A stretch of 24,230 nucleotides of DNA from a virus. The notes beneath the pieces were generated by a model. It did not search any database, was not told where the DNA came from, and saw only the letters and a program-made list of their open reading frames with translations. Both the position numbers and the translations under genes were made by a program. Below, piece by piece: positions 345 through 18,703 of this stretch (the stretch's first letter is position 1; each line of letters opens with the position of its first letter). Where the stretch lies: positions 1 through 24,230 of the IMG/VR virus record IMGVR_UViG_3300025286_000139. One strand, 5' to 3'.

Positions 345-361
345 TTTCAGTGTATAATACT
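345..361 (+). promoter_or_regulatory. Late-type promoter of the sigma-factor operon
   Basis: CAGTGTATAATACT matches the element found before the portal, protease, tail-module and tail-tube genes, with CA in place of GG just before TGTATAAT. It is the only member of the set to deviate there. The core is a sigma-70-like TATAAT. No TTGACA-like -35 is visible at the usual distance. It lies 33 nt before the ATG at 394. Confidence 0.6.
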
Positions 362-393
362 AATGTATCCACCTTTTAACGCAGGACAATCCC

Positions 394-615
394 ATGACCG
401 ATTTCAAAGAAGGCAATGCGATTCCATTGCAAATGTATATCAAGGCTACGGCTGACCTTGAGTGTGACGTTGAAAAAGACCTTGAGGCAAAAGATCCCGA
501 TACAGACGAGGCAAAAGCTATCCTATCCGGCGAAGCTAATGAAAGTACCGAAGGGAATGACGGAAGAACAAGTTCTTCAGACGATACAGAAAGTAGTGTA
601 CCGGACGGCGAATAA
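394..615 (+). CDS. Small acidic protein, first gene of sigma operon
   Basis: A 73-residue, strongly acidic protein with no recognised family. Asp and Glu dominate residues 25-73, and the tail is rich in Ser/Thr and probably disordered. The start follows an AGGA ribosome binding site at 383-386 and is the first ATG downstream of the promoter at 345-361. The last 59 nt overlap the start of the sigma-factor gene in another frame, much longer than the 1-8 nt overlaps further along the operon. In T4 the late sigma gp55 works with a small co-activator, gp33; the position and charge make a co-regulator conceivable, but no gp33-like motif can be claimed. The alternative is a non-functional leader ORF coupled to the sigma gene. 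Confidence 0.5.
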   Translation: MTDFKEGNAIPLQMYIKATADLECDVEKDLEAKDPDTDEAKAILSGEANESTEGNDGRTSSSDDTESSVPDGE

Positions 616-1084
616 GTACAAATTTGGCTATTATGATTACGACGACATCTGTCAAGAGGGTTTCATAATCGCCATGGAGGGTCTCGAACGTTACGATGGC
701 GTCCGACCTCTGGAAAACTTTTTAGCCGTACACGTTTCTAATCGATTAAAGAACTTTAAACGTGATAACTTCTGTCGCCAAGAATCCATTTCAGCGAGTG
801 GATCATCTTGGTTATTAAACGACACAAAGAGGTTCTTGATGGAGCCACTTGATATATCTTCGATTCGTGATGAAAAGGAATCGGGGATGAGTACCGACGA
901 CAACTTTATCGCTGATATTGAAACCAAAGAAATTGTAAGCGTTATTGATAAGTACCTAGACGTTTCAATGAGATCTGATTACTTGCGCATGCTTCACGAA
1001 GTATATGTTCCAAAGCATCGACGTGAGCAAATCATCGAAACGATAACGAATATCGTCAGGGAGCACGCCGATGAAGAAGGGTAG
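557..1084 (+). CDS. Phage late sigma factor, gp55-like
   Basis: A 175-residue sigma-70-family protein, close in length to T4 gp55 (about 185). It would bind host RNA polymerase and direct it to phage late promoters. Residues about 15-75 look like sigma region 2: an aromatic, Tyr-rich stretch (KYKFGYYDYDDICQEGF), then an amphipathic helix with ERYD, then a helix beginning PLENFLAVHVSNRLKNFKRD, which fits the region that binds the polymerase coiled coil and melts the -10 element. A short basic helix near the C-terminus (KHRREQIIETI) may be a remnant of region 4. The reading frame is open from 416, but the ATG at 557 is preferred because GAAGGG precedes it directly and the upstream 47 residues are low-quality and overlap the acidic gene. 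The TATAAT-like promoters in this window are its natural targets. Confidence 0.7.
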   Translation: MTEEQVLQTIQKVVYRTANKYKFGYYDYDDICQEGFIIAMEGLERYDGVRPLENFLAVHVSNRLKNFKRDNFCRQESISASGSSWLLNDTKRFLMEPLDISSIRDEKESGMSTDDNFIADIETKEIVSVIDKYLDVSMRSDYLRMLHEVYVPKHRREQIIETITNIVREHADEEG

Positions 1085-1871
1085 ATTCTCTAAATCAGAG
1101 ATTGCTTTCATAAAATCTAACTGTGAACATCTTTCTTATGAGGAACTGGGTACGAAACTTGACAGAGACCCAGAAAGCGTCGAGAGCTTCGTTAAATCAA
1201 AATTGGGCAAGGATGTCTCATCGAAACAAGAGCGTGCCGTACAGGCTGAATACGACCTTAAGAGACGCCCCTACTGGAAAGATCTAAAGGAGCAATTTAA
1301 TCCTAGCGAGCTAGAGATGATCTTGTTCCATTGGGGGCGCATGATTGGGCAATTTAGAGACGATGTGCTACCCACAGAAGAACTCCAAGTTCTTGACACG
1401 ATCAAGCTGGAGATTCTTATGAACCGGGCATTGAAAGAGCAGCAGAAGGGAATGAAGGATGTCGAAAACATGGAGAGACTGGTTACAGATGAAAAGCGAA
1501 AAAGCCTCGAAGATCAGGACATGGATGCAATTTTTAACATGGAAAGACAGATCGCCGTCCTGCGAGCCGCTCAAGAAACGCTCAATAAAGACTACAAGGA
1601 CTTGGGTCAAAAGAAAGCCGTCATGCTCCGAGATATGAAGGCTACGAGAGAGCAGCGCATTAAACGCTTAGAAGATTCAAAAGAGACATTTGTCGGCTGG
1701 ATCAAGAGACTACTAGACGACCCATCACACTCCAGAGAGCTTGGCCTCAGAATGGAGAAAATGCGGATAGCTGCGGATGAAGAAAAGACCCGCCTATCTG
1801 AGTATCACCAATACGAAGATGGTGGCATAGACCAACCATTCTTAACCCCAGAGACAGCCAAAGATGATTAA
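1071..1871 (+). CDS. Helix-rich protein, possible terminase small subunit
   Basis: A 266-residue, mostly helical and charged protein. Residues 5-45 resemble a helix-turn-helix (SYEELGTKLDRDPESVESF). Residues about 75-225 are rich in Glu, Lys, Arg and Leu with coiled-coil character, including a long helix around the ERQIAVLRAAQETL stretch. A DNA-binding N-terminus followed by a coiled-coil oligomerisation region is the usual plan of small terminase subunits, which recognise phage DNA and load the large subunit. No other gene in the window fills that role, although it lies 4 kb from the large terminase. The start at 1071 has a GGGAG ribosome binding site and overlaps the sigma gene by 14 nt. 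The family assignment rests on architecture and context only; it could instead be a transcription-related partner of the sigma factor. Confidence 0.4.
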   Translation: MKKGRFSKSEIAFIKSNCEHLSYEELGTKLDRDPESVESFVKSKLGKDVSSKQERAVQAEYDLKRRPYWKDLKEQFNPSELEMILFHWGRMIGQFRDDVLPTEELQVLDTIKLEILMNRALKEQQKGMKDVENMERLVTDEKRKSLEDQDMDAIFNMERQIAVLRAAQETLNKDYKDLGQKKAVMLRDMKATREQRIKRLEDSKETFVGWIKRLLDDPSHSRELGLRMEKMRIAADEEKTRLSEYHQYEDGGIDQPFLTPETAKDD

Positions 1872-2391
1872 ACATACAATATTCCTAAAATGGTGGCTCT
1901 TCATGAGCATCGTTCTTATCGCCTCTATATTTGGCTATAGAAACGGTGTGTTTGCTGAAGTATATGAAGCTGACTTCACCAAGCTAAGTGTCGTTCTCGC
2001 CGCCCTCTTTACTTACATGTCTATTTGGTGCGGAGTCAAAACGTGGCAGCTTAGCCAATTCCTAGACACATACGATACAAACAAAGAAAACAACTCTGTA
2101 ATCGTAGAGAGAATCGAACACCTAACCGAAGTCGGCTGGTTCGTATCCGACCTGTGTCTAAGCATCGGTATGATCGGAACCGTAGTTGGCTTTATCATGA
2201 TGCTCGGCGGCTTCTTTACCGTTGACTTCTCAGACGCCGCCACTCTCCAAAATCTTATCAAAGATCTAGGCTCCGGTATGTCTGTCGCCCTCTACACAAC
2301 CCTAGTTGGACTTGTTTGTTCTGCTTTGTTAAAGGTACAGTATTTCAATCTTAACCAAGGTATCTCTCGTATATTGGCTAAGATGTCATGA
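1864..2391 (+). CDS. MotA/TolQ/ExbB-family proton channel protein
   Basis: A 175-residue inner-membrane protein. Four hydrophobic segments are visible at about residues 8-28, 41-60, 97-117 and 138-160. The last two carry the family signature: IGMIGTVVGFI (101-111) with Thr106 in the pore-lining GTV turn, then GMSVALYTTLVGL (138-150) with Thr145/Thr146, matching the AL-T-GL pattern of ExbB, TolQ and MotA. In characterised systems five such subunits surround two ExbD/MotB-type subunits and use ion flow to drive rotation. It is a compact version: the long cytoplasmic tail of ZorA and the large cytoplasmic loop of MotA are absent. The gene overlaps its neighbours by 8 and 4 nt, so it should be made together with the partner encoded next. 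Family confidence is high; the role in a phage is unknown. Confidence 0.85.
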   Translation: MIKHTIFLKWWLFMSIVLIASIFGYRNGVFAEVYEADFTKLSVVLAALFTYMSIWCGVKTWQLSQFLDTYDTNKENNSVIVERIEHLTEVGWFVSDLCLSIGMIGTVVGFIMMLGGFFTVDFSDAATLQNLIKDLGSGMSVALYTTLVGLVCSALLKVQYFNLNQGISRILAKMS

Positions 2392-2993
2392 GAAAACGCA
2401 CATACGATACAAATGTAGCATTTCTAGATCTGTTGTTTAACACCCTCCTGTGTTTCGCCGCCCTCTTTACTCTTTCTTTCGTAATGATCAACCCATCTAG
2501 AGAGAACGCTAACACGGAATCAAAAGCTGAGTTCATTATTACCGTAACTTGGCCACACGAACAGGATAACGATGTTGACGTATACGTTGAAGACCCGGAA
2601 GGTCACCTTGTTTCTTTCTCCCGTCGAGAAGACGGCCTTATGCATCTAGATCGTGACGACTTGGGACATAGAAACGATACTATCCAGACACCAGACGGCC
2701 CCATCACGTATAATGAAAACAGGGAGATTGTCTCCATTCGCGGTATACTTCCCGGTGAATATATAGTAAATGTACACATGTACCATATGAACTCTGAAGA
2801 ACCATGCCCCGTCACTCTTCAGCTTGATAAAATTAACCCTTACAAGACCGCAGCCCTCAAAGAAGTCACGTTAATAGTTAAAGAAGAAGAGAAAACAGCC
2901 TTTCGCTTCACTGTGAATCAAAATGGCGACGTGATTGACGTAAATGAATTACCCAAAGACTTAGCCCACGCAAATCGAGCACCTCCTCTATGA
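2388..2993 (+). CDS. ExbD/MotB-like protein with YfaP-like C-terminal domain
   Basis: A 201-residue protein with a short basic cytoplasmic N-terminus, one transmembrane helix at about residues 10-34 and a periplasmic domain. The helix has an Asp near its start (FLDLLFNTLL, Asp14), where ExbD, TolR and MotB carry their essential ion-binding Asp. Residues about 48-180 form a beta-rich domain with DNDVDVYVEDPEG (60-72), HLDRDDLGH (86-94) and a GILPGEYIVNVH strand (119-130), the pattern of YfaP/DUF2135-type domains. This differs from MotB and ZorB, which have an OmpA-type peptidoglycan-binding domain, and from ExbD/TolR, which have a small dimer domain. The ATG overlaps the channel gene by 4 nt, supporting a channel-stator pair. 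The helix-with-Asp plus neighbour makes the class likely; the domain name is from pattern recognition. Confidence 0.75.
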   Translation: MRKRTYDTNVAFLDLLFNTLLCFAALFTLSFVMINPSRENANTESKAEFIITVTWPHEQDNDVDVYVEDPEGHLVSFSRREDGLMHLDRDDLGHRNDTIQTPDGPITYNENREIVSIRGILPGEYIVNVHMYHMNSEEPCPVTLQLDKINPYKTAALKEVTLIVKEEEKTAFRFTVNQNGDVIDVNELPKDLAHANRAPPL

Positions 2994-3529
2994 ACATCAT
3001 TCCCACCTTTATCCTGCTTGGGGGATTAATACTCTGGTTCGTAATAGGAACTAAAGGGTACTGGTCGCTTAAAATGATTCTCATCACCATGACGGTGTGT
3101 TTCAGCCTATTCCTGTCACAGACCATGGAAGACGTGAGAGGGTGGCCTACGGACGACGAGCTTCCAAATAAGTTCAGAGTGCATTGGATAGTTATCAAGG
3201 AGCCAAGCAAAACGGATCATAATGAAAAGGGCGGGATATATCTGTGGGTAACGGATTTGGCCGGGGACGGGAAACAGCCTCGTGCCTACAGGTCTGAATA
3301 CAGCCGCGAGAAACACGAGGACGCCCAGAAAGCCATCGGAATGATTATGGAGGGAAAGCCTGTCGCGGGTAGTCGCGGGGGTTCTGAGGGTGAAGGAGAG
3401 GGCGAAGGAGAGGGAGACGGCAAAAAGGGGCAAGGACAAGGAAATGGAACTGGCGACGGTAGCCTCAGTGATAGTCCCGAGATTATCTTTCATGAGCTAC
3501 CACCGTCTAAACTACCGGAGAAAAATTAA
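2990..3529 (+). CDS. Membrane protein with Gly/Glu-rich linker, motor cassette
   Basis: A 179-residue protein starting in a 4-nt overlap with the stator-like gene. Two hydrophobic helices lie at residues 3-20 and 27-44. A soluble region (about 50-120) contains FRVHWIVIKEP, GGIYLWVTDL and PRAYRSEYSREKHEDAQKAI. It is followed by a low-complexity stretch (about 125-160) of Gly-Glu and Gly-Gln repeats, encoded partly by a 12-bp tandem repeat at 3389-3412, and a short non-repetitive end (EIIFHELPPSK). I do not recognise a characterised family. Two anchors, a flexible linker and a conserved-looking tip recall how TonB or TolA transmit work from ExbBD or TolQR, but that is analogy only. It is co-translated with the channel and stator genes and is best treated as the third component. 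Confidence 0.65.
   Translation: MNIIPTFILLGGLILWFVIGTKGYWSLKMILITMTVCFSLFLSQTMEDVRGWPTDDELPNKFRVHWIVIKEPSKTDHNEKGGIYLWVTDLAGDGKQPRAYRSEYSREKHEDAQKAIGMIMEGKPVAGSRGGSEGEGEGEGEGDGKKGQGQGNGTGDGSLSDSPEIIFHELPPSKLPEKN
3389..3412 (+). repeat. 12-bp tandem repeat encoding Gly-Glu linker
   Basis: Two tandem units, GGTGAAGGAGAG (3389-3400) and GGCGAAGGAGAG (3401-3412), followed by a decaying copy, encode the GEGEGEGE part of the linker of the third motor-cassette protein. Slippage at this repeat could change linker length. Confidence 0.6.
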
Positions 3530-4554
3530 TGAACAAAAACGCAATTGTGTTCGGTATAACCGGCCAAGACGGTTCATACTTAGCAGAACTCTTATTGGGC
3601 AAGAACTACAACGTAATCGGAGTGACACGGAGGGTTAGTACCGGCAATACGGGCCGGATTGCACACCTCATGGACTGCCCGCATTTACGGTTAGTAGAGG
3701 GCGACTTAACTGACTACAGCAGCATCTTGCGTATTATTGAAGAGTATGAGCCAAAAGAGGTGTATAATCTTGCAGCGATGAGCCATGTTGGCACATCCTT
3801 TGACCAACCTCTGCTTTCATTTGATGTCACTGGAAAGGGATGCTTAAATATCCTTGAAGTTCTTAGGGAGCACAGTTCTTACGCAAGGTTTTATCAAGCG
3901 TCTTCCAGTGAAATGTTTGGAGATGCGTTAACACAAATAGGTGGTGATAAGTATCAAGATGAAAAAACTCTATTTAGACCTCAATCTCCATATGCCATAG
4001 CCAAGCTTGCTGCTCATCACGCAACTAGACTATATAGACAATCTTATGGATTACATGCTAGTTGTGGAATTTTGTTTAACCACGAGAGCGAGAGAAGAGG
4101 CGGAAGGTTTGTTACAAAGAAGATTACAAAATATATCGCCAAGCTACATCATTATCTTGAAGAAGACGGTGATATCGAGTCTGCGCCCAAGCTACACTTA
4201 GGAAACTTGGACGCCAAAAGGGATTGGGGACACGCCGAAGACTATGTGCGCGCTATGTGGCTGATGTTACAGGAAGACGTACCGGATGATTATGTGATAG
4301 CTACGGGGACGACACATTCTGTTAGGGACTTTTTGAAAGCGGCGTTCAATAAAATTGGAATAGAGGAGTATATGGATTTTGTAGTTCAGGATCCGAAATT
4401 TATGAGACCCTCAGAAGTTCCGTACTTAAAGGGTAACTATTCCAAAGCAAGGGTGGTGCTGGGCTGGGATCCGAAGGTGGATTTCGACCAGCTAGTTTCT
4501 AGGATGGTAGAGTACGATATTCAACAAGTCAAGGAACAGGAGACAGCAGGATGA
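3529..4554 (+). CDS. gmd: GDP-mannose 4,6-dehydratase
   Basis: A 341-residue short-chain dehydrogenase/reductase family enzyme converting GDP-mannose to GDP-4-keto-6-deoxymannose, the precursor of GDP-fucose, GDP-rhamnose, GDP-perosamine and related sugars. Visible motifs are the NADP-binding GITGQDGSYL (9-18), the catalytic SSSEMFG (125-131) and YAIAK (Tyr155, Lys159), the substrate region NHESERRGGRFV (184-195) and RDWGHAEDYV (231-240), all typical of GMD. Length matches bacterial GMD (about 340-370). It begins in a TAATG junction with the motor cassette and ends in an ATGA overlap, so it is part of the same operon. gmd is a known auxiliary gene in marine phages and usually linked to surface polysaccharide change, but no partner epimerase/reductase is in this window, so the final sugar is not predictable. 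Confidence 0.95.
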   Translation: MNKNAIVFGITGQDGSYLAELLLGKNYNVIGVTRRVSTGNTGRIAHLMDCPHLRLVEGDLTDYSSILRIIEEYEPKEVYNLAAMSHVGTSFDQPLLSFDVTGKGCLNILEVLREHSSYARFYQASSSEMFGDALTQIGGDKYQDEKTLFRPQSPYAIAKLAAHHATRLYRQSYGLHASCGILFNHESERRGGRFVTKKITKYIAKLHHYLEEDGDIESAPKLHLGNLDAKRDWGHAEDYVRAMWLMLQEDVPDDYVIATGTTHSVRDFLKAAFNKIGIEEYMDFVVQDPKFMRPSEVPYLKGNYSKARVVLGWDPKVDFDQLVSRMVEYDIQQVKEQETAG

Positions 4555-4901
4555 GTAAAAAAACTACGTTTCTAGCCGTAGTGGCTACGCTTACGTTAGC
4601 AGTGTTGGTTTATCATACTTCTCTGCTTCGTAGTGAGATTCTCTCTTTGAGGGAGGAAACTAGTGGACACGCCGATGACATTTATTTTCTTATGAAGAGT
4701 GACAGCGCAAGGCTGTATACGATCATGGATACGGAGGTTAGGATTTTGCATTACGCCAAACCTCATAAGCACCCTATGTGGGCTTGCCCAGAGTGTGCTG
4801 AACAAAAAAATCGGGAAAAATTAGATGCCCAAAAAGAAATACAAGGTGAAAGTAGACATAAGCACGGCGCTGAAGGAGTTGGAGAAGCTGGGTCTAAGTG
4901 A
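4551..4901 (+). CDS. Small membrane-anchored protein with His/CxxC motif
   Basis: A 116-residue protein with an N-terminal hydrophobic helix (about residues 5-25) after a KK start, then probably a periplasmic domain. A possible metal-binding cluster, HYAKPHKHPMWACPEC, lies at about residues 67-82, with four His/Cys-type ligands in a short stretch. The C-terminal 35 residues are charged and low in hydrophobics. It starts in the ATGA overlap with gmd, where an AGGAG-type ribosome binding site (CAGGAGACAGCAGG) sits in the gmd 3' end. I recognise no family. A lysis accessory (spanin-like) or envelope protein is possible from topology, but there is no lipobox and no partner with one. Confidence 0.6.
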   Translation: MSKKTTFLAVVATLTLAVLVYHTSLLRSEILSLREETSGHADDIYFLMKSDSARLYTIMDTEVRILHYAKPHKHPMWACPECAEQKNREKLDAQKEIQGESRHKHGAEGVGEAGSK

Positions 4902-7753: not shown

Positions 7754-7757
7754 CAGA

Positions 7758-7770
7758 TTGGTGTATAATA
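7758..7770 (+). promoter_or_regulatory. Late promoter before portal gene
   Basis: TTGGTGTATAATA is an exact match to the conserved element of the window. It lies 5 nt after the terminase stop and 52 nt before the portal ATG. The leader contains the 10-bp palindrome TGTAATTACA at 7792-7801. No convincing -35 box is visible. Confidence 0.65.
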
Positions 7771-7821
7771 TTTTAGACAATTCCTATTCAATGTAATTAC
7801 AATCCTATTACAGGTGTGTAG

Positions 7822-10071
7822 ATGGCCAAATCAAAAAAAGAAGACAACCCTATCAAAGACCACATTCCAGAACCGGCTTTTGTGACATGGGATAATAATG
7901 ACGAAAAGGCCGCTGCCCTAGCCGCCTCCGCTGGCGCCGTGGAGGTTTATGATGGTATTGGTAGCTCTACTGCATCACATCGATCTTTCCTAGATGTTGA
8001 AGGCAATATTTCTGTTAGAACGGGTTATCAGAGAGACGACTATAACAGGTTTCGATCTAGAGAGGCCATTCCTAGACAACAAAAGAAGATTATGGCTAAG
8101 TGTATGGATGCTTATGACAGGGTTGGCATTATTAGAAATGTTATCGATTTAATGGGGGATTTTGCCACTCAGGGAATTAGCATAGTTCATCCCAACAAGA
8201 GAATTGAAAGATTCTTTCAGAAATGGTTTGACAAAGTTTCTGGCAAAGAGCGCTCAGAAAGATTTCTAAACAACCTGTATAGATGTGGGAATGTCGTAGT
8301 TAAACGCCAAAATGCGAAATTGTCAAAAAAGCTAGAGAAGGAACTGGCTAAAGGATCAACTCCTGATATAGAAATCTTGCTTCCTAAAGTAACAAAGAGA
8401 GAGATACCTTGGAGGTACGATTTTCTGAATCCTCTTACGGTGGAAGTTATAGGCGGGCAACTTGCTATATTTGCAGGAGACCCGCAGCTAGGTCTTAAGG
8501 TTTCTGCAACCATTAAGAAGATGGTTCTCAGCGGGAGCGAGTACCCAGAAATTATAGCCAAGCTTCCCAAGGATCTCGTTAAGTCTATCAGGGATGGTAA
8601 TAGCATTATTCCCCTAGACCCTGATAAAACGTCCATTCATTACTACAAGAAAGATGACTGGCAGATATGGGCCAACCCCATGATACTATCTGTGTTAGAT
8701 GATGTTGTCATGCTTGAAAAAATGAAGCTTGCCGATATGTCTGCTTTGGATGGGGCTATTTCTAATATACGACTCTGGAAGCTTGGTGACCTAGACAACA
8801 AAATTTTGCCCACCAAGACTGGCGTTAACAAGCTAAGAAATATCTTGGCGAGCAACGTTGGCGGCGGGACCATGGATTTGGTTTGGGGTCCAGAGCTTGA
8901 CTTTAAAGAGTCTGCCACTGAAGTCCACAAATTCTTGGGAGCAGAAAAATATCAGCCGGTGCTGACCAGTATCTATGCTGGTTTAGGTATTCCACCCACT
9001 CTCACCGGGGCTTCTAATTCTTCTGGCGGTGGATTTACTAACAACTTTGTTTCTCTCAAGACTCTCATCGAGAGACTGGAGTATGGCAGAGATTTGCTTG
9101 TTTCGTTTTGGAACGCGGAGATAGAGGCTGTTCAAAAGGCTATGGGCTTTAGATTTCCTGCTAAGATCCATTTTGAACAAATGATTCTCTCTGATGAGGC
9201 GGCTGAAAAGAACTTGTTGATTCAGCTTGTTGACCGGGATCTTATTAGCGCCGAAACTGTACAGGCTAGATTTGGAGAACTGCCAGAAATTGAGAGAATT
9301 AGAATTAAGCGAGAAGTCAAGGATAGAGAGAACGAAAAGATGCCACAGAAATCCGGTCCTTATCACAACCCACAGCATAGAAACGATCTGGAGAAGATAG
9401 CCTTGGGTAAAGACCTGTTAGAGGCAGAGGATCTGGGTTTGATTCCATCTGAAGAAACTGGGAATCACCCGTTTACAAAACCAGAAGACAGGCGCGATAC
9501 CGCAGTGGTAGAGGAGAAGAAGGAGGAGAAGAAGGATAAACAGGACGAGCGAGAGATGAAAAAAATGGATCAAAAGCAGCAATCACAACCTCCACAACAA
9601 AAAGAGTTCGGTCCTACTGGTAGACCAGAGGACGGCAGACCAAAGAACGCTAAAGATGAACAGAAACGGAAGCAGAAGCGCGTAGTGCCTAAAAGCGCCG
9701 CTAGTGATTTCACTAATCTGTTTTTGTGGGCCAACGACGCTCAAAAACAAATAGCGGAAATTGTTCATCCAGCACTGCTTGCTCACTATGACAAGAAGAA
9801 TATAAGAAGCTTGACTAAAAGCCAAATGGATGAACTTGAATACATTAAGTTTTGTCTATTGTGCGGTTTGAAGCCTTATGTGGAATTAGATATTGATGTT
9901 ATTCAACAGCTACTTCAAAACTCTAATACCGCCACTAACACCGCGTTATCTGCGGCCCGAAGAGAATTTGTTACGGAGTTTGTGTCTGTAAACGGTAAAC
10001 AACCCACCGTTGAAGAAATGCGCAATATTCAATCTTCGGCGTATGCTATGCGCACTTTGACCAACCTGTAA
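7822..10071 (+). CDS. Portal protein
   Basis: A 749-residue protein, long for a portal. It forms the dodecameric ring at one capsid vertex through which DNA enters and leaves. Features seen are an N-terminal helical region (about 80-135), a beta-rich wing region (about 180-280), and VLTSIYAGLGIPPTLTG (about 380-396), a characteristic portal stretch, followed by a Gly/Ser turn and the long stem helix (LIERLEYGRDLLVSFW). Residues about 555-620 are a highly charged Lys/Glu/Gln-rich segment, then a helical C-terminal domain of about 120 residues. The start is preceded by AGGTGTGTAG and lies downstream of a dedicated promoter. The charged extension may contact scaffold or packaged DNA. Confidence 0.9.
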   Translation: MAKSKKEDNPIKDHIPEPAFVTWDNNDEKAAALAASAGAVEVYDGIGSSTASHRSFLDVEGNISVRTGYQRDDYNRFRSREAIPRQQKKIMAKCMDAYDRVGIIRNVIDLMGDFATQGISIVHPNKRIERFFQKWFDKVSGKERSERFLNNLYRCGNVVVKRQNAKLSKKLEKELAKGSTPDIEILLPKVTKREIPWRYDFLNPLTVEVIGGQLAIFAGDPQLGLKVSATIKKMVLSGSEYPEIIAKLPKDLVKSIRDGNSIIPLDPDKTSIHYYKKDDWQIWANPMILSVLDDVVMLEKMKLADMSALDGAISNIRLWKLGDLDNKILPTKTGVNKLRNILASNVGGGTMDLVWGPELDFKESATEVHKFLGAEKYQPVLTSIYAGLGIPPTLTGASNSSGGGFTNNFVSLKTLIERLEYGRDLLVSFWNAEIEAVQKAMGFRFPAKIHFEQMILSDEAAEKNLLIQLVDRDLISAETVQARFGELPEIERIRIKREVKDRENEKMPQKSGPYHNPQHRNDLEKIALGKDLLEAEDLGLIPSEETGNHPFTKPEDRRDTAVVEEKKEEKKDKQDEREMKKMDQKQQSQPPQQKEFGPTGRPEDGRPKNAKDEQKRKQKRVVPKSAASDFTNLFLWANDAQKQIAEIVHPALLAHYDKKNIRSLTKSQMDELEYIKFCLLCGLKPYVELDIDVIQQLLQNSNTATNTALSAARREFVTEFVSVNGKQPTVEEMRNIQSSAYAMRTLTNL

Positions 10072-10098: not shown

Positions 10099-10111
10099 TT
10101 GGTGTATAATT
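10099..10111 (+). promoter_or_regulatory. Late promoter before protease/scaffold gene
   Basis: TTGGTGTATAATT repeats the conserved element, in the short gap after the portal stop and 17 nt before the protease ATG. A TTGATT sequence 18 nt upstream could act as a weak -35, but it is not shared by the other copies. The short leader still holds a GAGGTAAG ribosome binding site. Confidence 0.6.
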
Positions 10112-10127: not shown

Positions 10128-11612
10128 ATGACAATGCCAATCTTTCAATCAGAAATAAATTCTGGATTAGCAGAGCTTATTCAGACCAATAATAGCATTG
10201 CCTATTCTTCATTGGCGGCGCCCTTTGCTCCAACAAAGAACGATGAAGAACTGGCAAAGCTTGAGCTATTGAACACACAGGCTAAAAGTAATCCTGATCA
10301 ACTTGATCTTTATTACCTAAATTCTGTCCTTGTTTCAACTGGGTGGAACAAGAACGATGACGTGTTTAATGCAGCGGAGACTTGGGCTGCTAGAAAAACC
10401 CCAGAGGACAAACAGTTTAATTATATGCACGATGAAAACGATATCATCGGACATATTACCGGTAACTGTGTGTTGAACGCCGATGGTAAAGTCATCGCTG
10501 ACAGTCAAGACGCACCAGAGGAGTTTAACATTGTCACCAGCGCTGTAATTTATAGAAGCTGGTCAGACCCAGAAAAAAGAGAAAGAATAAACCAGCTAAT
10601 TGCCGAGATCGAACAAGGACAATGGTTTGTTTCTATGGAGTGTCTGTTTAAAGGGTTTGACTACGCTGTAGTCGCTCCTGATGGCAACCACAACATTGTG
10701 ACAAGAAACGAGTCTTCAGCATTTTTAACCAAACATCTAAAAGCCTACGGAGGAGAAGGACTGTATGAAGGATATACGATAGGACGACTGCTTAGGAATA
10801 TTTCATTTTCAGGTAAAGGATTGGTAAATAATCCTGCCAATCCGCATAGTGTAATTCTTAAAGAGACTGACCCCTTTAAGTCTACTCAAGCATGCGTAAT
10901 AGAAGAAACCACCATAAGGGAGACAAATAAAATGTCTAATGACAATGTCATGCAACAGCAACTAGATGTTCTTAAGGCTGACTTGGCTGAAGCTAAGCAG
11001 CGTGAAGAAGCTCTAGAGGCCCGGCTAAAGGAATTGGACGAAAAGGCTTTTACCGAGAAGGTTGAAGCTTTGGAGGCCGAAATCCAATCTAGAGACGAAG
11101 CAATCGCTTCTATGTCAGAGGCCGCTACAGCTTTTGATGCTGAAAAAGCTGAGCTAACGGAAGCCTTGACGAAAACCCAAGAGGAACTCGAAGCGCTCAA
11201 GTCAGAACTTGACACTATTAAGACAGAGGCTCATAAGGCTGCTAGACTAGCCGCCCTTATCCAAGCCGGTCTTGATGAGGAAGCCGCTGCTGAGAAGCTC
11301 GAAAAATTTGCCGAAGCTAGTGACGAGATATTCAATGAGATTGTCTCGCTGTTTTCACAGGCCGACGCGGAAGATGAGCCTGCTCAAGAAGAAGAAGCCG
11401 AAGCAGAAGTTACAGAATCTGATGAAGCTGATGAAGATTCAGACGAAGCAGAGACTGAGGCCGACGCAGAAGTTTTAGAAACTGTAGAAGAAGAAGTCGA
11501 AGCCAGCTTAACTGACGCTGGTGAAACTGATTCTGCCGAAGAGGCAAGGTCTGCCGCAAGCGACTGGCTAAGTAAGAATGTTCTTAAGTCAACAGCTAGC
11601 ATCCAAGAGTAA
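10128..11612 (+). CDS. Prohead protease fused to scaffold protein
   Basis: A 494-residue two-part protein. Residues about 60-250 look like a prohead maturation protease: NYMHDENDIIGHI (98-110) gives the catalytic His101 and FVSMECLFKGFDY (167-179) the nucleophile Ser169, the His...Ser arrangement of prohead serine proteases. Residues 269-494 are a long coiled coil (Glu/Ala/Leu/Lys) ending in a very acidic segment (about 415-460), as expected of a scaffold that is degraded after assembly. The start at 10128 has GAGGTAAG upstream. An internal in-frame ATG at 10932 with its own ribosome binding site suggests that the scaffold is also made separately, as in lambda C/Nu3. Catalytic assignment is from motif shape; the domain plan is strong. 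Confidence 0.8.
   Translation: MTMPIFQSEINSGLAELIQTNNSIAYSSLAAPFAPTKNDEELAKLELLNTQAKSNPDQLDLYYLNSVLVSTGWNKNDDVFNAAETWAARKTPEDKQFNYMHDENDIIGHITGNCVLNADGKVIADSQDAPEEFNIVTSAVIYRSWSDPEKRERINQLIAEIEQGQWFVSMECLFKGFDYAVVAPDGNHNIVTRNESSAFLTKHLKAYGGEGLYEGYTIGRLLRNISFSGKGLVNNPANPHSVILKETDPFKSTQACVIEETTIRETNKMSNDNVMQQQLDVLKADLAEAKQREEALEARLKELDEKAFTEKVEALEAEIQSRDEAIASMSEAATAFDAEKAELTEALTKTQEELEALKSELDTIKTEAHKAARLAALIQAGLDEEAAAEKLEKFAEASDEIFNEIVSLFSQADAEDEPAQEEEAEAEVTESDEADEDSDEAETEADAEVLETVEEEVEASLTDAGETDSAEEARSAASDWLSKNVLKSTASIQE
10932..11612 (+). CDS. Putative separate scaffold protein from internal start
   Basis: An in-frame ATG (residue 269 of the protease-scaffold fusion) is preceded by AAGGGAGA at 10916-10923, about 9 nt away, a good ribosome binding site inside a coding region. 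The product would be 226 residues, starting MSNDNVMQQQL, consisting only of the coiled coil and acidic tail. Scaffold nested in a protease gene is known for lambda Nu3 and similar phages. Translation from this site is inferred, not shown. Confidence 0.5.
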   Translation: MSNDNVMQQQLDVLKADLAEAKQREEALEARLKELDEKAFTEKVEALEAEIQSRDEAIASMSEAATAFDAEKAELTEALTKTQEELEALKSELDTIKTEAHKAARLAALIQAGLDEEAAAEKLEKFAEASDEIFNEIVSLFSQADAEDEPAQEEEAEAEVTESDEADEDSDEAETEADAEVLETVEEEVEASLTDAGETDSAEEARSAASDWLSKNVLKSTASIQE

Positions 11613-11638
11613 AATATCTTTAATTAGGAGTACATAAA

Positions 11639-12142: not shown

Positions 12143-12166
12143 GCCTTATATAGGAGATAACTAAAA

Positions 12167-13171
12167 ATGTCTAACTCACTACAGAGACCAGACGAGCAGT
12201 TTATTGGATTGCTCAAACAGTCTGGTAGCAATGATAAGTCTGTTGCCCTAGAAGCGCAGCACGAGATCGCCAAGGCTCTCGAACAACCTCTTCGAAAGGG
12301 TGTTCTTGTTGGCGATATTCTCGGTAACATTTTTGAGAGAGTAGTCATGGAGCCGGGTACTACATCCGAGTTCCCGCTTGATCTACTTGCTCCGGGCGAA
12401 GAAGACGAATTCGTCGCCTATACTAATCCCGGCCATGGCCGTATTCCAGAACGTCAGGTTGAGGGCGATTACGTAATGGTCCCGACCTACAGCGTTAGTG
12501 CTTCAATCGACTGGCTACTTCGCTATGCTCGTGAAGCCCGATGGGATATTGTTGGTCGCGCAATGCAGGTGTTGGAAGCTTCATTCGTCAAGAAGATGAA
12601 TGATGATGGCTGGCATACTGTCTTGGCCGCTGGAGTTGACCGTAATATCATGGTTTATGATGCTGATGCAACTGCTGGTCAGTTCACCAAGCGTCTAGTT
12701 TCCTTGATGAAGACTGTCATGCGTCGTAACGGTGGCGGAAACACAGCGTCGATTAGCCGTAGTAAGCTAAGCGACCTGTACCTTAGCCCTGAAGCCCTAG
12801 AGGATATTCGCAACTGGCAGGTGGATCAAATTGATGAGATCACCCGCCGCGAGATCTTCTTGGCCGCTGACGGTGGAATTACTCGTCTATTCCAAGTTAA
12901 TTTGCACGACATCGACGAGCTTGGTGAGAGTCAGGAGTATCAAAACTTCTTTGTCAACTCACTAAGCGGAAGCCTCCAAGGTAGTGATGTAGAGCTAGTT
13001 GTCGGACTTGATCTTGGCAACAGAGACTCCTTCATCATGCCTGTGAAGCAAGAAGTGCAGATCTTCGAAGACGACAACCTTCATCGTCATCAGAAGGCTG
13101 GTCTTTATGGTTGGGCCGAGCTAGGCTTTGCCGTTCTAGACAACCGCCGAGTCCTTCTCGGATCCTTCTAA
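12167..13171 (+). CDS. Major capsid protein, HK97 fold
   Basis: A 334-residue protein in the size range of HK97-fold capsid subunits. It follows the portal, protease and decoration genes and precedes the neck genes. The N-terminal 45 residues are helical and polar and may be a delta-domain or scaffold-contact region. A long helix around residues 120-150 (SASIDWLLRYAREARWDIV) fits the spine helix, and the C-terminal part (VKQEVQIFEDDNLH, YGWAELGFAVLDNRRVLLGSF) fits the closing P-domain strands common in this family. AGGAGA lies just before the ATG. A strong terminator follows at 13201-13235. Codon choice looks like highly expressed genes (many CGT and GGT codons). Confidence 0.85.
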   Translation: MSNSLQRPDEQFIGLLKQSGSNDKSVALEAQHEIAKALEQPLRKGVLVGDILGNIFERVVMEPGTTSEFPLDLLAPGEEDEFVAYTNPGHGRIPERQVEGDYVMVPTYSVSASIDWLLRYAREARWDIVGRAMQVLEASFVKKMNDDGWHTVLAAGVDRNIMVYDADATAGQFTKRLVSLMKTVMRRNGGGNTASISRSKLSDLYLSPEALEDIRNWQVDQIDEITRREIFLAADGGITRLFQVNLHDIDELGESQEYQNFFVNSLSGSLQGSDVELVVGLDLGNRDSFIMPVKQEVQIFEDDNLHRHQKAGLYGWAELGFAVLDNRRVLLGSF

Positions 13172-13200
13172 GGTTGGCCAAGGCCAAAAGCTGCAAGAAG

Positions 13201-13235
13201 CCGTCCCGTGGTTTATATCACGGGGCGGTTTTTTT
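13201..13235 (+). terminator. Rho-independent terminator after major capsid gene
   Basis: A 10-bp stem (CCGTCCCGTG at 13201-13210 pairing with CACGGGGCGG at 13219-13228, with one G-U pair), an 8-nt loop and a run of seven T. It ends the head-gene transcript and directly precedes the next late promoter. Confidence 0.9.
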
Positions 13236-13243
13236 ATAAGGAT

Positions 13244-13256
13244 ATGGTGTATAATA
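13244..13256 (+). promoter_or_regulatory. Late promoter of neck/fibre module
   Basis: ATGGTGTATAATA matches the conserved element (GGTGTATAATA at 13246-13256). It sits 9 nt after the terminator T-run and 30 nt before the first ATG of the module, so head and neck/tail modules are separate transcription units. Confidence 0.65.
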
Positions 13257-13286
13257 TAGTGAGTATATGCCACTCTGGAGATAGAT

Positions 13287-13736
13287 ATGACAGGAATATC
13301 TGATTATTTAGAATCGGGTGTGATAAATTTTTTGTTCAGAGGTAACACCAATAGCTTTGCTCGTCCGGGCAATTTAGCCATAGCGTTGTGTTCTGGAGTT
13401 CCACAAGACCATCAAACTGGAGCTACTATTCCAGAAATAGCTAGTGGCGTAGCTGGGGTTTCAAATGGGTATAAAAGATATAATTTAGGATCTCCTGCTG
13501 ACGCCACATGGAGGCAAGTTAGCAGCAGTGGTTTTACTAATAATCTTAGTACATTAAGCTTTCCGGCGTGCTCCAACACCGCTTGGGGCCTTATGTCTGG
13601 TATAGCCATTTGTAATAAATCTGGAATAGGCACAGGTCAAGTGTTAATGCACGGAAAGTTAGCAAATCCCGTTACAATCAGGACTGGTGAAACCTTTGCG
13701 TTTAATATTGGCGATTTAGAAATAGATCTTTTTTAG
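13287..13736 (+). CDS. Conserved phage structural protein, SDYLE type
   Basis: A 149-residue protein of a small widespread virion protein type. It opens with GISDYLESGVINFLFRG, followed by a strand with a hydrophobic LAIALCSG motif, a region containing GYKRYNLG, and a C-terminal part with FPACSNTAWGLMSGIAICN and MHGKLANPVTIRTGETFAFNIGDLEI. In related proteins the same order is seen: SDYLE start, ALF/ALC strand, TFPA-W-GI and a final sequence with LxxGDTxxF. The function is not established; such genes lie with head and fibre genes. GGAG precedes the start. Confidence 0.65.
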   Translation: MTGISDYLESGVINFLFRGNTNSFARPGNLAIALCSGVPQDHQTGATIPEIASGVAGVSNGYKRYNLGSPADATWRQVSSSGFTNNLSTLSFPACSNTAWGLMSGIAICNKSGIGTGQVLMHGKLANPVTIRTGETFAFNIGDLEIDLF

Positions 13737-13748
13737 AGGGGTTATCCA

Positions 13749-14261: not shown

Positions 14262-14271
14262 GAATGGATAA

Positions 14272-16008
14272 ATGACACAAAAAAATCTAGCCTCTCTCAA
14301 GGCAGAATACGATGCTAATTTAGCCGATAACGACACCGGGGCTATATCTGCTCAGGACGTAAGAGACGCTTTAACTAACACGGCAGACTCCATCATTCCT
14401 ATTATGGCTAGTGGCACTGATGTATATTTTTCGAATAGGTATTCAACTTTTGGTACTAGTGTAGATTTCAGGCCAAGTGGAGATATTCTTCCCAATAGAA
14501 CCATAGCCAATCTTACCGGCCAGTGGAACTCTAACAACGTATCTGCGATTAAGTTCACATCTGGTCCCACATCTACTACAACTGGTGGGATAGCTTTTTA
14601 TACAGCCGCTTCTGGTAATCCTCTTCCATCCGGTAATGAATGGCCTTACACCCTGCATAAAAGAGCACAATTTAGACACGATGGTCGATTTGAGATCCTT
14701 GGTAGTGGAGTAGGCCATATAGGACTTCACTATAACAGAATTCATCACAGTGGCATTGGAATATTTATTGATCATGATTATGGCAACCATTTGGCTTCTC
14801 CTCAGAGTCAAACGATGCGTTTTGGTCATTATGATACCGCGAGCAATATATTTACCCCCAACCTGCATTTGCATGGGTCAGGCCAAGTTATCATTTCAAG
14901 AGAGGGTAGCTATGCTGTTAAAAGCTCTGGCTGGGCAGAGCTACACCTTGAGAATAAAAATAACAGAAATTCTTCCAATAATAACAATATGGGAACCGGT
15001 AGCCGAATCCTTTTCAAGGGGTTTAAAGACGGCTCACGGTCAACTTCACAAGATATATATGCTCTGGGTACAGATATTCGTTCGTCTGGCAACAGTTCAA
15101 TTTCAAAACACAACTTTTTTATACAGGATCTTTACGCTCCACAAAAACCTCATAGATTTTATATTGATCCATCGGGAAATATAGGTATAGGCAGCGTGGC
15201 TCCTAGTGGCAAACTTCACATTACTGCTGGAGGGCTGTATAGCGGAGCTAGTGGTGTAGCCTTGTCATTAGGCACTGTAGAATCTAACACATATTTTGAT
15301 TGGAAGCTTTCAAAACCAGCAACTGAATCAGGTAACACCTATCTAACTTTGGACACTAGATATCCAGCAAAAAGAAATATTATTGCGGTGCAGTCCAATA
15401 CCACTCGCAATTCTACACATGTTGGATTTGGTACTAGAACTCCTTATGGAATAGTGGACATTTCGCATGGTGGGATTGGTCACTCTGGCTTAAATCTAAG
15501 TAATACTGGGGAGGGAGGCAGAAGGTGGACGCTGCTGAGTACTCACGGCAAGTCTACTGCTCTAGAAACTCCAGCCAACAAAGCCAGCGGATGCTTTGTT
15601 GTTCAAGACTCAACGGCCAGTAGAACCCGCTTTGCTATCGATGCTTCAGGAAACGTGGGAATTGGCGAGATACCACAAACAATCAAGGGAACCGCTACGA
15701 AGGTTTTGGTGTTTGGGGACAATGGTCAAAACGCGCTAGCAACCAGCCTTAACACTGCTGGCCTTTTTGCCAAAGATACCGGAGGAGTTGTAAAACTTTA
15801 TGCCTTTGACGAGGGTGGAAACCAGAGTGCTATTAGCCCCCACGTATTCAAAATGTTTGATCAGCCAGATCCTTTGGCTTGGTCATACTACGGCATTAAT
15901 CATGCAGTTGGAAGAGAAATTAACGTAGATGTCTATGGAGCAATTAGAGCCATAGAAGATTTGACCGGTAAACAATTTATATTTACACAAGATATAGACG
16001 GAGAGTAA
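14272..16008 (+). CDS. Virion fibre protein with GNVGIG repeats
   Basis: A 578-residue fibre-like protein. The first 45 residues (DNDTGAISAQDVRDALTNTADSI) match the short attachment motif found at the N-terminus of many phage fibres. The rest is Gly/Ser/Asn/Thr-rich and beta-rich, with three loosely repeated blocks of the type found in fibre shafts: DPSGNIGIG...PSGKLHI (near 300), HVGFGTRTPYGIVDI (near 382) and DASGNVGIGE (near 460). These are normally found next to a self-cleaving peptidase S74 chaperone, but no S74-like Ser-Lys domain is visible at the C-terminus. Its place among neck genes suggests a head or neck fibre instead of a tail-tip fibre. RBS AGGA precedes the start. Confidence 0.75.
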   Translation: MTQKNLASLKAEYDANLADNDTGAISAQDVRDALTNTADSIIPIMASGTDVYFSNRYSTFGTSVDFRPSGDILPNRTIANLTGQWNSNNVSAIKFTSGPTSTTTGGIAFYTAASGNPLPSGNEWPYTLHKRAQFRHDGRFEILGSGVGHIGLHYNRIHHSGIGIFIDHDYGNHLASPQSQTMRFGHYDTASNIFTPNLHLHGSGQVIISREGSYAVKSSGWAELHLENKNNRNSSNNNNMGTGSRILFKGFKDGSRSTSQDIYALGTDIRSSGNSSISKHNFFIQDLYAPQKPHRFYIDPSGNIGIGSVAPSGKLHITAGGLYSGASGVALSLGTVESNTYFDWKLSKPATESGNTYLTLDTRYPAKRNIIAVQSNTTRNSTHVGFGTRTPYGIVDISHGGIGHSGLNLSNTGEGGRRWTLLSTHGKSTALETPANKASGCFVVQDSTASRTRFAIDASGNVGIGEIPQTIKGTATKVLVFGDNGQNALATSLNTAGLFAKDTGGVVKLYAFDEGGNQSAISPHVFKMFDQPDPLAWSYYGINHAVGREINVDVYGAIRAIEDLTGKQFIFTQDIDGE

Positions 16009-16010
16009 CA

Positions 16011-16283
16011 ATGGCCATTGTCAAAAAAATTATAACGGCTAACGCCATAAAGAATGGCACAGTTGTGACCGGGGTTGATCCTCTCGGTAATTCTAACACA
16101 ATTGACCCGCTTAGTGGCAAGATCACTACAAGCTTTACAAGCATGTCTCAGGGATACGGTTTGGGCACTGATGGACAAACTCATTTCCAATGGTTAAACG
16201 TCCACAGTTCTGGCGCCCTACAGTCACTCTATAATACTAGATTTGACAATCCTAGATATTATACTGGCGATGCTGTTACGTAG
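16011..16283 (+). CDS. Small virion-associated protein A
   Basis: A 90-residue protein beginning 2 nt after the fibre stop, with GGAG in the fibre gene end as ribosome binding site. It is Thr/Gly/Ser-rich, with a GVDPLGNSNTIDPLSG stretch near residue 40, and ends in RYYTGDAVT. The next gene product ends in RHYKGDAAG and has a similar GVDVHGNKKTL stretch, so the two are likely divergent paralogues. They may be fibre accessory or tip proteins. No family recognised. Confidence 0.55.
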   Translation: MAIVKKIITANAIKNGTVVTGVDPLGNSNTIDPLSGKITTSFTSMSQGYGLGTDGQTHFQWLNVHSSGALQSLYNTRFDNPRYYTGDAVT

Positions 16284-16304
16284 GATTTTTAAAGGAATAT
16301 CATT

Positions 16305-16502
16305 ATGGCTGATGACGTAATTTTTATACCTAGATCTGGGGTAAGAGGCCAGATTGGTGCTACTACAGGCGTAGATGTTCATGGGAATAAAAAAACGCTT
16401 CGGGATTATTACGTAGCATCGGGAATAGACGCTACGTATTTCGGCAAGCTTGGTGACAGAAACGACGACATTAGGCACTATAAAGGCGATGCAGCCGGTT
16501 AG
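16305..16502 (+). CDS. Small virion-associated protein B
   Basis: A 65-residue protein with AAGGA 11 nt upstream. It has the plan of a basic or polar N-terminus, TGVDVHGNKKTL, a Tyr-rich middle (RDYYVASGIDATYFG) and the end RHYKGDAAG. The central GVD-x-x-GN and final Y-x-GDA are shared with the preceding gene. Probable fibre-module accessory. Confidence 0.5.
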   Translation: MADDVIFIPRSGVRGQIGATTGVDVHGNKKTLRDYYVASGIDATYFGKLGDRNDDIRHYKGDAAG

Positions 16503-16519
16503 TGTGAATTGGAGAAATC

Positions 16520-17023
16520 ATGGCTATAAATATTCCAGAGAGTGTTTATACAAAGTTTAACGAAGCTGTTGATGCAATGATAACAGAGTTCGGGGTTCCC
16601 TGCACTTTGGTTTATCCAGAGAAGCAAGTGGCCTGTACCAATTGTATTACAGACACCATAGGTAGAAAATCTGGCAACAGATATAGAACAGGGGGTCCAA
16701 TTCCGTTTGCTAGAGGTATGATGTGTCCTCTTTGTCATGGAAAGGGATTTAAAGCCACGGAGAACACCGATGAAATTACCATGAGGGTTTATTGGAGTAA
16801 AAGAGACTGGGTTAATACAGGAATCCAGTTGGATGTTCCAAACAATGTTGTACAAACCATTACCTATTTGAAACACCTGCCCAAAATCAATAAAGCTAAA
16901 GAGGTGCTGATTAACAAGAACATTGAAGGGCATGAGATACTTAGATATATAAAAACTGGCGAATCAATCACTAACGGTTTGCAACATAACAGATACATTG
17001 TAACCTATTGGAGGAGGGCTTAA
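16520..17023 (+). CDS. Neck/completion protein with zinc-knuckle cysteines
   Basis: A 167-residue protein with two CxxC pairs: CTNC (Cys39, Cys42) and CPLC (Cys69, Cys72), plus Cys28, arranged as a small zinc ribbon of about 30 residues. The rest is alpha/beta with RVYWSKRDWVNTG and a C-terminal RYIVTYWRRA strand. It lies in the position of a head-tail stopper. A zinc site in a neck protein is not typical but has precedent in virion proteins. No firm family. The ribosome binding site is GGAG 8 nt before the ATG, and the stop abuts the next start. Confidence 0.5.
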   Translation: MAINIPESVYTKFNEAVDAMITEFGVPCTLVYPEKQVACTNCITDTIGRKSGNRYRTGGPIPFARGMMCPLCHGKGFKATENTDEITMRVYWSKRDWVNTGIQLDVPNNVVQTITYLKHLPKINKAKEVLINKNIEGHEILRYIKTGESITNGLQHNRYIVTYWRRA

Positions 17024-17665
17024 ATGGCGTCACTTCCCCCCATTAAAGCTAGGCTTGTTTTAGATCTTAAGGAGTCAGACAAAGATATTCAATTGAAAAT
17101 GATGGCTTCGATGCAGACATGGTTAAACCACAAATTTCAACTGGCCCAGCCCACTATTATCAGCCGATTAAAGTTTCAAGTATCTGAGTGGCTAATGGCT
17201 ACTGACGAGATACAGTCTTTACTTGGTGGACAATTAATGGCTGACTTTGGTATTCCTTCTCCCGGCGCTTCTGTTTCCAATATAGTTGAGTCAGTTACCC
17301 GAACTGTTACCGTGATGTTCAAACCTTTGGGGAGAACCTTGACCGGGCAAGTGTTAACCATAGCTGTTCAACCTCTTGACTTTTCTAATGTATTAGGAAT
17401 TGGCGAAACAATTATTACCAAAAAGGGGGCCAAGCTGGACTGGCTAGAGTGGCTATTAATGAGAGGCGATGATATTATCGTTAGAGATTACCACGTTGAA
17501 TATGGATCATTCGGTAGAACCGGTGAAGCACATATGATTAAGCCGGGGCTGTTTAGGGTCGATCCAGCATTTAGCGGTACGGGAAAAGACAATTTTATTA
17601 CCAGAGCGTTTGACGACAAGACAGATGACATGATAAGAATTATATTTAACGCTATACAGAGCTAA
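17024..17665 (+). CDS. Putative tail completion or neck protein
   Basis: A 213-residue protein. An N-terminal helical part (about 15-75) is followed by strands (TRTVTVMFKPLG, GQVLTIAVQPLDF) and a C-terminal alpha/beta part that includes the WLEWLLMRGDDIIVRDYHVEYG motif. It starts immediately after the stop of the previous gene, with a GGAGG ribosome binding site inside that gene's 3' end, indicating coupling. Between neck and tail tube the usual genes are stopper and terminator/completion proteins. I assign it to that group by position only. Confidence 0.45.
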   Translation: MASLPPIKARLVLDLKESDKDIQLKMMASMQTWLNHKFQLAQPTIISRLKFQVSEWLMATDEIQSLLGGQLMADFGIPSPGASVSNIVESVTRTVTVMFKPLGRTLTGQVLTIAVQPLDFSNVLGIGETIITKKGAKLDWLEWLLMRGDDIIVRDYHVEYGSFGRTGEAHMIKPGLFRVDPAFSGTGKDNFITRAFDDKTDDMIRIIFNAIQS

Positions 17666-17667
17666 CT

Positions 17668-18681
17668 ATGCCTGATTATACAGAGTTAAAAGGATTCACT
17701 CAAATAGGGGATAACACCCTTACGTCGATGTTGCAAGACAACGTCATAGAATTTTTTGATTGGGGTCTTCTTAATAAGGGTGGATACTTTAATATATCTA
17801 TCCCCACATCCGGTCAATATGGGGGCGATAGACACAGACTAAGACTAGTAGATGACCCTAACTATACTAAGGGTCAAGTATGGGAGTCGTACAAATCAAA
17901 CTGGGTGTGGCAAAGCGGGATCGACCAAGCTGACACACCAGTTAATATATCTGGAGTATACGTGGGTGGAACCTTCTACCCAAAAACCACAACTGGTAGT
18001 TATGCCCACCACGTTAACTATCCTTGGGGTAGAGTAATTTTTGACAGTGCTATTTCCACGAGTAGTACCGTTACTATGGAATACAGTCACAAGTGGATTA
18101 ATGTTACATATGCCAACAGCGTGCCTTGGTTTAGGGAGTTACAATCTAGGTCACATCGTGTAGATAGCGGCCATTTTTTACAGGATGCATCTGGAGACTG
18201 GTCACAACTAGGCGGTTCTAGATTTCAATTACCCGCCATAGCTATTGAGATGGTTCCGGTTAGATCCATGAAGCCATATCAACTGGGTGGTGGTCAGGTT
18301 ATCAATAGTGACATTTTATTCCATGTTTATGCCGAGGACGAATATACGAGAGACAAATTGGTAGACATAGTTGCATTACAAGACGACAAAACAATATACA
18401 TGTTCGATACCAATAGAATGACAACGGACAACAGATTCCCGCTTGATTATCGGGGGGCAAAGGCTTCAGGAGCCTTGACATACCCGGATCTGGTCAGACC
18501 AAGCGGTTCTGCTTATGGGGATGGAACTTTTAATGCCGGATTTAGATCTGACACAAAGAATGGTAGACCCGACCGGCTAAGGTTTACCAGTATGAGAAGT
18601 CAGCAGATGAGTGTACTTACTCCGTCTTTATATAGCGGTTTAGTGAGATGTTCAGCAGAAGTAATAATGCCGGGAATTTAA
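17668..18681 (+). CDS. Putative tail completion/terminator-region structural protein
   Basis: A 337-residue beta-rich protein, abundant in Tyr, Trp and Gly. A short helical start (TSMLQDNVIEFFDWGLLN) is followed by a beta domain and a segment VHVYAEDEYTRDKLVDIVALQ-like (about 220-245) resembling the central strand-helix of tail terminator proteins. It is the last gene before the tail tube. The length exceeds normal terminators (about 130-200), so it may carry an additional domain or have another role in the neck. No tail sheath features were seen. It starts 2 nt after the previous stop, with no strong ribosome binding site, consistent with coupling. Confidence 0.45.
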   Translation: MPDYTELKGFTQIGDNTLTSMLQDNVIEFFDWGLLNKGGYFNISIPTSGQYGGDRHRLRLVDDPNYTKGQVWESYKSNWVWQSGIDQADTPVNISGVYVGGTFYPKTTTGSYAHHVNYPWGRVIFDSAISTSSTVTMEYSHKWINVTYANSVPWFRELQSRSHRVDSGHFLQDASGDWSQLGGSRFQLPAIAIEMVPVRSMKPYQLGGGQVINSDILFHVYAEDEYTRDKLVDIVALQDDKTIYMFDTNRMTTDNRFPLDYRGAKASGALTYPDLVRPSGSAYGDGTFNAGFRSDTKNGRPDRLRFTSMRSQQMSVLTPSLYSGLVRCSAEVIMPGI

Positions 18682-18684
18682 TGC

Positions 18685-18703
18685 TTTTGGTGTATAATAC
18701 TAT
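18685..18703 (+). promoter_or_regulatory. Late promoter of tail tube gene
   Basis: TTTTGGTGTATAATACTAT is the best-conserved copy of the late element. It lies directly after the stop of the previous gene and 49 nt before the tail tube ATG. Confidence 0.7.

Follow-up and report, generated by a model that had tools for sequence, protein, structure and literature searches.

A TATAAT-containing single element before the virion operons of an uncultured phage: a probable late promoter for a phage-encoded sigma factor

How does an uncultured phage switch on its packaging, capsid and tail genes when a sigma factor gene of its own stands at the head of that arm? The question is raised by the virus record IMGVR_UViG_3300025286_000139, in which a short element, GGTGTATAATA, recurs in the gaps before these genes and a sigma-70-family protein, here called sigma-1, is encoded upstream of them. 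The window analysed is the whole 24,230-base IMG/VR record, which is classed as a fragment. Judged by sequence and placement, the copies of (T)GGTGTATAATA before virion-gene operons in this family of uncultured large phages very probably serve a phage-made sigma factor as its signal to begin late transcription. The whole explanation, i.e., phage-specific single-element promoters used by the host core RNA polymerase with a phage sigma, sigma-1 being the likeliest reader, we hold with a probability of about 0.58.

The window contains three exact copies of GGTGTATAATA (positions 7760, 13246 and 18689) and three copies with one mismatch, at 349 (AGTGTATAATA), 10101 (GGTGTATAATT) and 3759 (GGTGTATAATC). 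In 1000 dinucleotide shuffles, exact copies averaged 0.006 with a maximum of 1, so that none reached three, and copies with at most one mismatch averaged 0.41 with a maximum of 4, none reaching six. Only 851 of the 24,230 bases (3.5%) are non-coding, yet five of the six copies fall in gaps (p ~3e-7), and five of the eight gaps of at least 40 nt contain such a copy. A looser 13-mer with 3 mismatches gave 15 matches vs 8.9 expected, weakly above chance. The five gap copies, numbered S1 to S5 from left to right (Table 1), all precede genes of the late (packaging, capsid, tail) arm, and each has GTG immediately 5′ of TATAAT. The original prediction had placed five sites in gaps before genes, which the search bore out, with positions correct to within a few bases; its site at 345 is a T-rich run 5′ of the copy at 349. 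It had left off the sixth copy (3759-3769), which lies inside the epimerase gene and has the same flanks in a relative (L009, at 1033). We take this copy as coding sequence and not as a promoter site; it is nevertheless a copy of the motif within a gene.

Conservation was followed in 80 loci obtained by a terminase search of IMG/VR and in ten longer contigs (G001-G010), which were read and have the same gene order. For each site, the orthologous downstream gene was located and the best upstream match taken; the window is itself among the rows, and some contigs are counted both as locus and as long contig. The element was found at 0-1 mismatch before the portal gene (S2) in 65 of 84 rows, downstream of the capsid gene (S4) in 26 of 32, and before the gene at 18752 (S5) in 9 of 10, window included, the tenth having two mismatches. 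Before the gene at 10128 (S3) it was found in 18 of 62 rows, with another 37 at two mismatches. At six gene starts of these loci taken as controls, none of 242 rows matched at 0-1 mismatch and 8 did at two. Also kept in relatives is the order at S4, GGGCGGTTTTTT followed by the motif, i.e., terminator and then site.

A second set of loci was fetched by sigma-1 instead of terminase; 57 of them could be judged, and 8 contigs overlap the first set. Where the gap between terminase and portal genes measured at least 15 nt, GTGTATAAT was present at 0-1 mismatch in 32 of 44 loci; with a smaller gap it was present in 0 of 13. Apparent GTGTATTAA matches at the terminase ends in part of this set were rejected as sites, as they are codons of the terminase C-terminus. 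The element also emerged from a count of all 8-mers in upstream gaps, to which no motif was supplied: its words rank first in G001, G002, G004, G005, G006, G008 and G010, and of the 37 upstream gaps of G001, 10 contain TGTATAAT, which has 15 copies over both strands of 136 kb. Six further contigs, found through sigma, held 28 copies of KGTGTATAAT vs 2 of the reversed pattern, and in more distant relatives the first base of the element is T or C (TGTGTATAAT). Equal frequency of the motif inside genes and before them had been named as the outcome that would speak against the idea. Because the window record is itself a fragment, this comparison was run on relatives; at score 13, the window and the ten contigs together had 43 matches in gaps and 28 in genes, numbers that are approximate, as genes were called by a simple longest-open-reading-frame (ORF) method with a ribosome-site rule and the matrix was trained on the slot sites.

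Table 1. Positions of the late-element sites, neighbouring features, additional sigma factor genes and early-type promoters.
Feature	Location	Strand	Context or evidence
Site S1, AGTGTATAATA	349..359	+	before small ORF and sigma gene
Small acidic ORF, 73 aa	394..615	+	between S1 and sigma-1; overlaps sigma start out of frame
Sigma-1, sigma-70-family, 181 aa	539..1084	+	domain 2 recognised (Pfam Sigma70_r2), no region 4 recognised
Site S2, GGTGTATAATA	7760..7770	+	terminase/portal gap
Portal protein gene behind S2	7822..10071	+	phrog_2739, E 1.3e-8
Site S3, GGTGTATAATT	10101..10111	+	before head-region gene 10128-11612
Major head protein gene, upstream of terminator and S4	12167..13171	+	phrog_2522, E 7.3e-5
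Hairpin with U run, intrinsic-terminator-like, end of capsid operon, directly 5′ of S4	13195..13234	+	fold -34.8 kcal/mol (13172-13245), z -5.5
Site S4, GGTGTATAATA	13246..13256	+	before gene 13287-13736, after capsid terminator
Site S5, GGTGTATAATA	18689..18699	+	before tail-region gene 18752-19834
Second/third sigma-70-family genes	G001:98533-99030 and 125561-126058; G002:85916-86380; G003:3341-3793; G004:12836-13372		second in conserved gene order
TTGACA-N4..8-CGAT(A)-TATAAT, spacer 16-17	G001 272-, G002 1952-, G004 100428+/103623+/104955+/105915+, G009 9470-38536 minus strand, L057, L085		early arm

After removal of near-copies, 81 sites yielded the consensus TTTGGTGTATAAT, with little information further upstream. 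The absence of a shared −35, which the original prediction had claimed, was confirmed: in the pooled sites, TTGACA matches 16-18 nt upstream were no better than at three control distances. Outside the search pattern, a T-R-R step is conserved 5-7 nt past the hexamer, with T at +14 (5 nt past the hexamer) in 71 and a purine at +15 in 75 of the 81 non-redundant sites. S2 to S5 each have this step, and S1 is without it. It stands where a transcription start would be expected. These features suggest a phage sigma that, on the host core RNA polymerase, would recognise (T)GGTGTATAAT as an enlarged −10 without a −35; DNA would be opened at TATAAT, transcription would start 6-7 nt downstream, and the packaging, capsid and tail operons would thus be switched on late in infection.

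That the element is an operator or a site for processing within late transcript leaders, and no promoter, appears highly improbable. Short conserved gap elements can be binding sites, and sequence alone is considered here; the element, however, holds a perfect TATAAT together with the conserved start-like step at the right distance, and at S4 transcription has to be started anew, as a strong terminator-like hairpin directly precedes the site.

The divergent arm of the relatives, which carries the early genes, has promoters of a different type, TTGACA-16/17-TATAAT, presumably read by the host primary sigma. CGAT occurs in the spacer of 36 of the 92-93 distinct strict TTGACA/TATAAT promoters, and G009 has a run of such CGAT-type promoters before early genes; this CGAT could serve as an operator or make a spacer contact. 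None of these 36 has GTG before the hexamer. Such a division between the two arms is what a late type with a reader other than the host sigma would lead one to expect. The competing idea, that the host primary sigma uses the late sites itself as extended −10 promoters with no need of a phage sigma, draws on the facts that TATAAT is the −10 consensus of primary sigma factors, that a TG upstream of it is a contact of the sort that can stand in for a −35, and that S1 keeps mostly the TATAAT part. The textbook extended −10 is, however, TGn-TATAAT, its TG one base away from the hexamer, unlike the TG flush with the hexamer at the window and pooled sites, and the G before TG is conserved in 81 of 81 sites (chosen at up to 3 mismatches). 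Moreover, the host-type promoters of these phages contain TTGACA, none of the 36 has GTG before the hexamer, and the sites precede virion operons, which ought to be silent early in infection. We therefore regard reading by the host sigma alone as quite unlikely.

From the element, its position and conservation, the missing −35, the start-like step and the contrasting early class we infer promoter activity, late timing, use of the host core polymerase and the reading sigma. As to the polymerase, genes for a multisubunit RNA polymerase were not found in 11 records (the control matched 14 of 14), and a search for a T7-type RNA polymerase was uninformative, its control matching nowhere.

Several observations weigh against the proposed phage-specific late promoters read by sigma-1. 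G003 has the words of the element but not as leading upstream word in the 8-mer count, and in G004 S2 to S4 are unrecognisable, although S5 is recognisable. TG adjoins TATAAT in 6 of the 36 host-type early promoters. In G001, sites also precede the ribonucleotide reductase gene and other non-virion genes, so that "late only" is too narrow a description. All 9 relatives longer than 97 kb encode two to three sigma genes (Sigma70_r2 search at E 0.01; some below the Pfam cut-off). Finally, base −16, where one clade of the element has G and others have T or C, does not track one residue of the sigma-1 helix once more relatives are added. A covariation between this base and sigma-1 had looked clean between two clades and failed with more relatives (22 sigma rows that did not fit the parsing pattern were left out of the table), and it was dropped as evidence.

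Which sigma reads the element is thus the central question. Sigma-1 is the likeliest candidate: it stands at the head of the late arm and has domain 2 and no recognisable domain 4. It matches PF04542 (Sigma70_r2) with 34.2 bits (cut-off 24). A 175-residue sigma-70-family protein had been predicted from the window; the gene is there, but homology places its start at 539 (181 aa), not 557 (175 aa). Domain 2 is well supported by an alignment of 21 members and by a structural model whose residues 3-79 can be superposed on sigma domain 2 over 72 residues (Z up to 9.7, rmsd 2.4), while a mean pLDDT of 70 leaves the fold of the whole chain uncertain. For region 4, no Pfam match was obtained at E up to 1, which does not exclude that region, and neither does the C-terminal model, three helices whose best structural match (Z 4.8) listed no sigma domain. 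A Foldseek structure search gave no match at E 0.001 or better. Sigma-1 is present in all nine of the ten long contigs that cover its place, and 502 IMG/VR stretches encode a relative.

The window is too short to show the further sigma genes of its relatives. A second sigma gene is present in G001, G002, G003 and G004 (sigma-2, 150-187 aa) and in 5 of 6 further contigs, and some have a third. With a second sigma in every relative above 97 kb and a third in some, two or three candidates compete, sigma-1 among them. It may therefore be that the sites are late promoters read by sigma-2, located in the early/replication arm of relatives, or by a third sigma, with sigma-1 reading something else or acting as a later step of a cascade. 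Consistent with this, sigma-2 sits in similar gene order in the four contigs, Sigma70_r2 scores higher for it than for sigma-1, and by analogy with phiEco32 the late sigma could be made from the middle arm (PMC8948821). Yet a region 4 is recognised in the third sigma of G001 (31.0 bits), while the late element is without a −35; for sigma-2 this argument is weak, as its region 4 is hardly recognised (E 0.16, one of four members). Sigma-1, moreover, is the sigma linked to the late arm. Another phage sigma as the reader seems to us rather unlikely, and sigma-1 itself, by location and domain content, has a somewhat better than even chance of being the reader. Of the predicted phage sigma with a matching promoter set, −10-only promoters before packaging, capsid and tail genes and a sigma gene heading the late arm were recovered; sigma-1 is a likely reader and no more than that, all 9 relatives above 97 kb carrying one or two more sigma genes in other places.

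The site before the sigma operon differs from the others. Its slot matched at 0-1 mismatch in 7 of 30 rows; AGTGTATAATA is common to the window, G001 and G002/G007, and other relatives have only (G)TATAATA, GG being absent in most, or nothing clear, with no good −35. AGTG also stands before the ribonucleotide reductase gene of G001 and at S3 of G002 and is thus not a mark of the sigma operon. The copy at S1 had been proposed as a weaker or dual site with positive feedback. Dual or host reading would fit, the host polymerase presumably having to use S1 as well if synthesis of the sigma is to begin. A conserved feedback loop found no support, since TATAAT is kept and GG mostly not, and we reject a family-wide sigma-operon site with feedback, as several relatives have no recognisable element there. 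In L067 (2435-2454), a TGTGTATAATA site upstream of sigma-1 forms an inverted repeat (TGTGTATAATATTATACACA), so that both strands match.

ORFs of 52-78 codons similar to the small one between S1 and sigma-1, with a core of about DL..xDP...AKAIL, exist in most relatives of the nearer clades and, more loosely, in G003 and G004 (as L086, L071); none like it was seen in L057, L058, L059, L069 and L054. The product of the small ORF is a possible partner or anti-sigma of sigma-1. Tentatively, and at odds well below even, the infection could run as a cascade from early promoters of host type, with CGAT as an operator in the spacer, via one or more of the two to three phage sigmas, to late promoters made up of the single element GGTGTATAATA (or TGTGTATAATA); the late sigma and the small overlapping protein would be co-translated.

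T4 late promoters have the consensus TATAAATA, without the GGTG that the element here has. The original prediction had compared sigma-1 with T4 gp55, which is fair as to the way of working: a −10-like element without −35 before late genes and a short sigma with domain 2 (PMC7892883, PMC2988020). The lengths are 185 aa for gp55 and 181 aa for sigma-1. No kinship beyond domain 2 was found. The profile comparison with gp55 was weak (hhalign probability 22%, 33 columns), and phrog_234, "late sigma transcription factor", was matched by one of 21 sigma-1 family members (E 0.008). The C-termini of the family are acidic (EEG or EDW) and not clearly like the sliding-clamp-binding epitope of gp55; of the sliding clamp families, PF02767 was found in 0 of 11 records and PF02916 in 1 of 11, below cut-off and with a weak control.

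The promoter element of phiEco32 gp36 resembles ours more closely. PMC8948821 and PMC4331800 describe gp36-dependent middle/late promoters as a single element, tAATGTAtA, before structural genes, with TG flush with TATA, no −35 and starts 6-8 bp downstream, and gp36 as a sigma without region 4. Single element, flush TG and missing −35 are shared with our sites, where the start is predicted from the T-R-R step, and tAATGTAtA agrees with TGGTGTATA at 7 of 9 positions; the differences are GG for AA and a longer conserved hexamer here. Between sigma-1 and gp36, both of the sigma-70 family, no kinship was detectable (hhalign probability 1.8%). Phage 7-11 (SaPh711_gp47) likewise uses a phage sigma and late promoters at structural gene boundaries (PMC8948821); these promoters are bipartite, however (GTAAtg-(16)-aCTA), and its sigma possesses region 4. 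In sequence form, the single-element promoters proposed here are thus closest to those of phiEco32 gp36 and less close to those of T4.

T4-like and phiEco32-like phages are already known to have late promoters of one element that a stripped-down sigma of the phage reads. What would be new is a third, apparently large family of uncultured phages with the same solution and its own element. Among the literature matches listed, the exact motif strings occurred only in unrelated-looking papers and no paper dealt with this phage family, neither of which is proof of absence. The element could make the operons and timing of many uncultured genomes readable from sequence, and the presence of several sigma factors in the family makes the matching of promoters and sigmas directly testable.

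Searching the phage collection, we obtained no match with sigma-1, 40 records with terminase, every one below 60% identity, and two Bacillus phage G records (20%) with the major head protein. A genome scan for the host matched a pattern in 6 stretches, none of them a relative; a marine origin of the loci is a guess. Besides sigma-1, portal and major head protein, the window encodes a nucleotide-sugar epimerase, HNH and ERCC4-type nucleases, the large terminase, a head protein and the tape measure protein. Its left-end gap (1-112) contains repeated CCTATACCCCCTA-like words. Three small genes between sigma and epimerase (1864-2391, 2388-2993 and 2990-3529) have no homologues in the ten relatives; by eye, the first two resemble MotA/ExbB-type membrane proteins, the first being without a family match. 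The minus strand of G001 carries, at about 68-98 kb, a long series of genes for sugar epimerases, glycosyltransferases and methyltransferases, as if the phage remakes surface polysaccharide.

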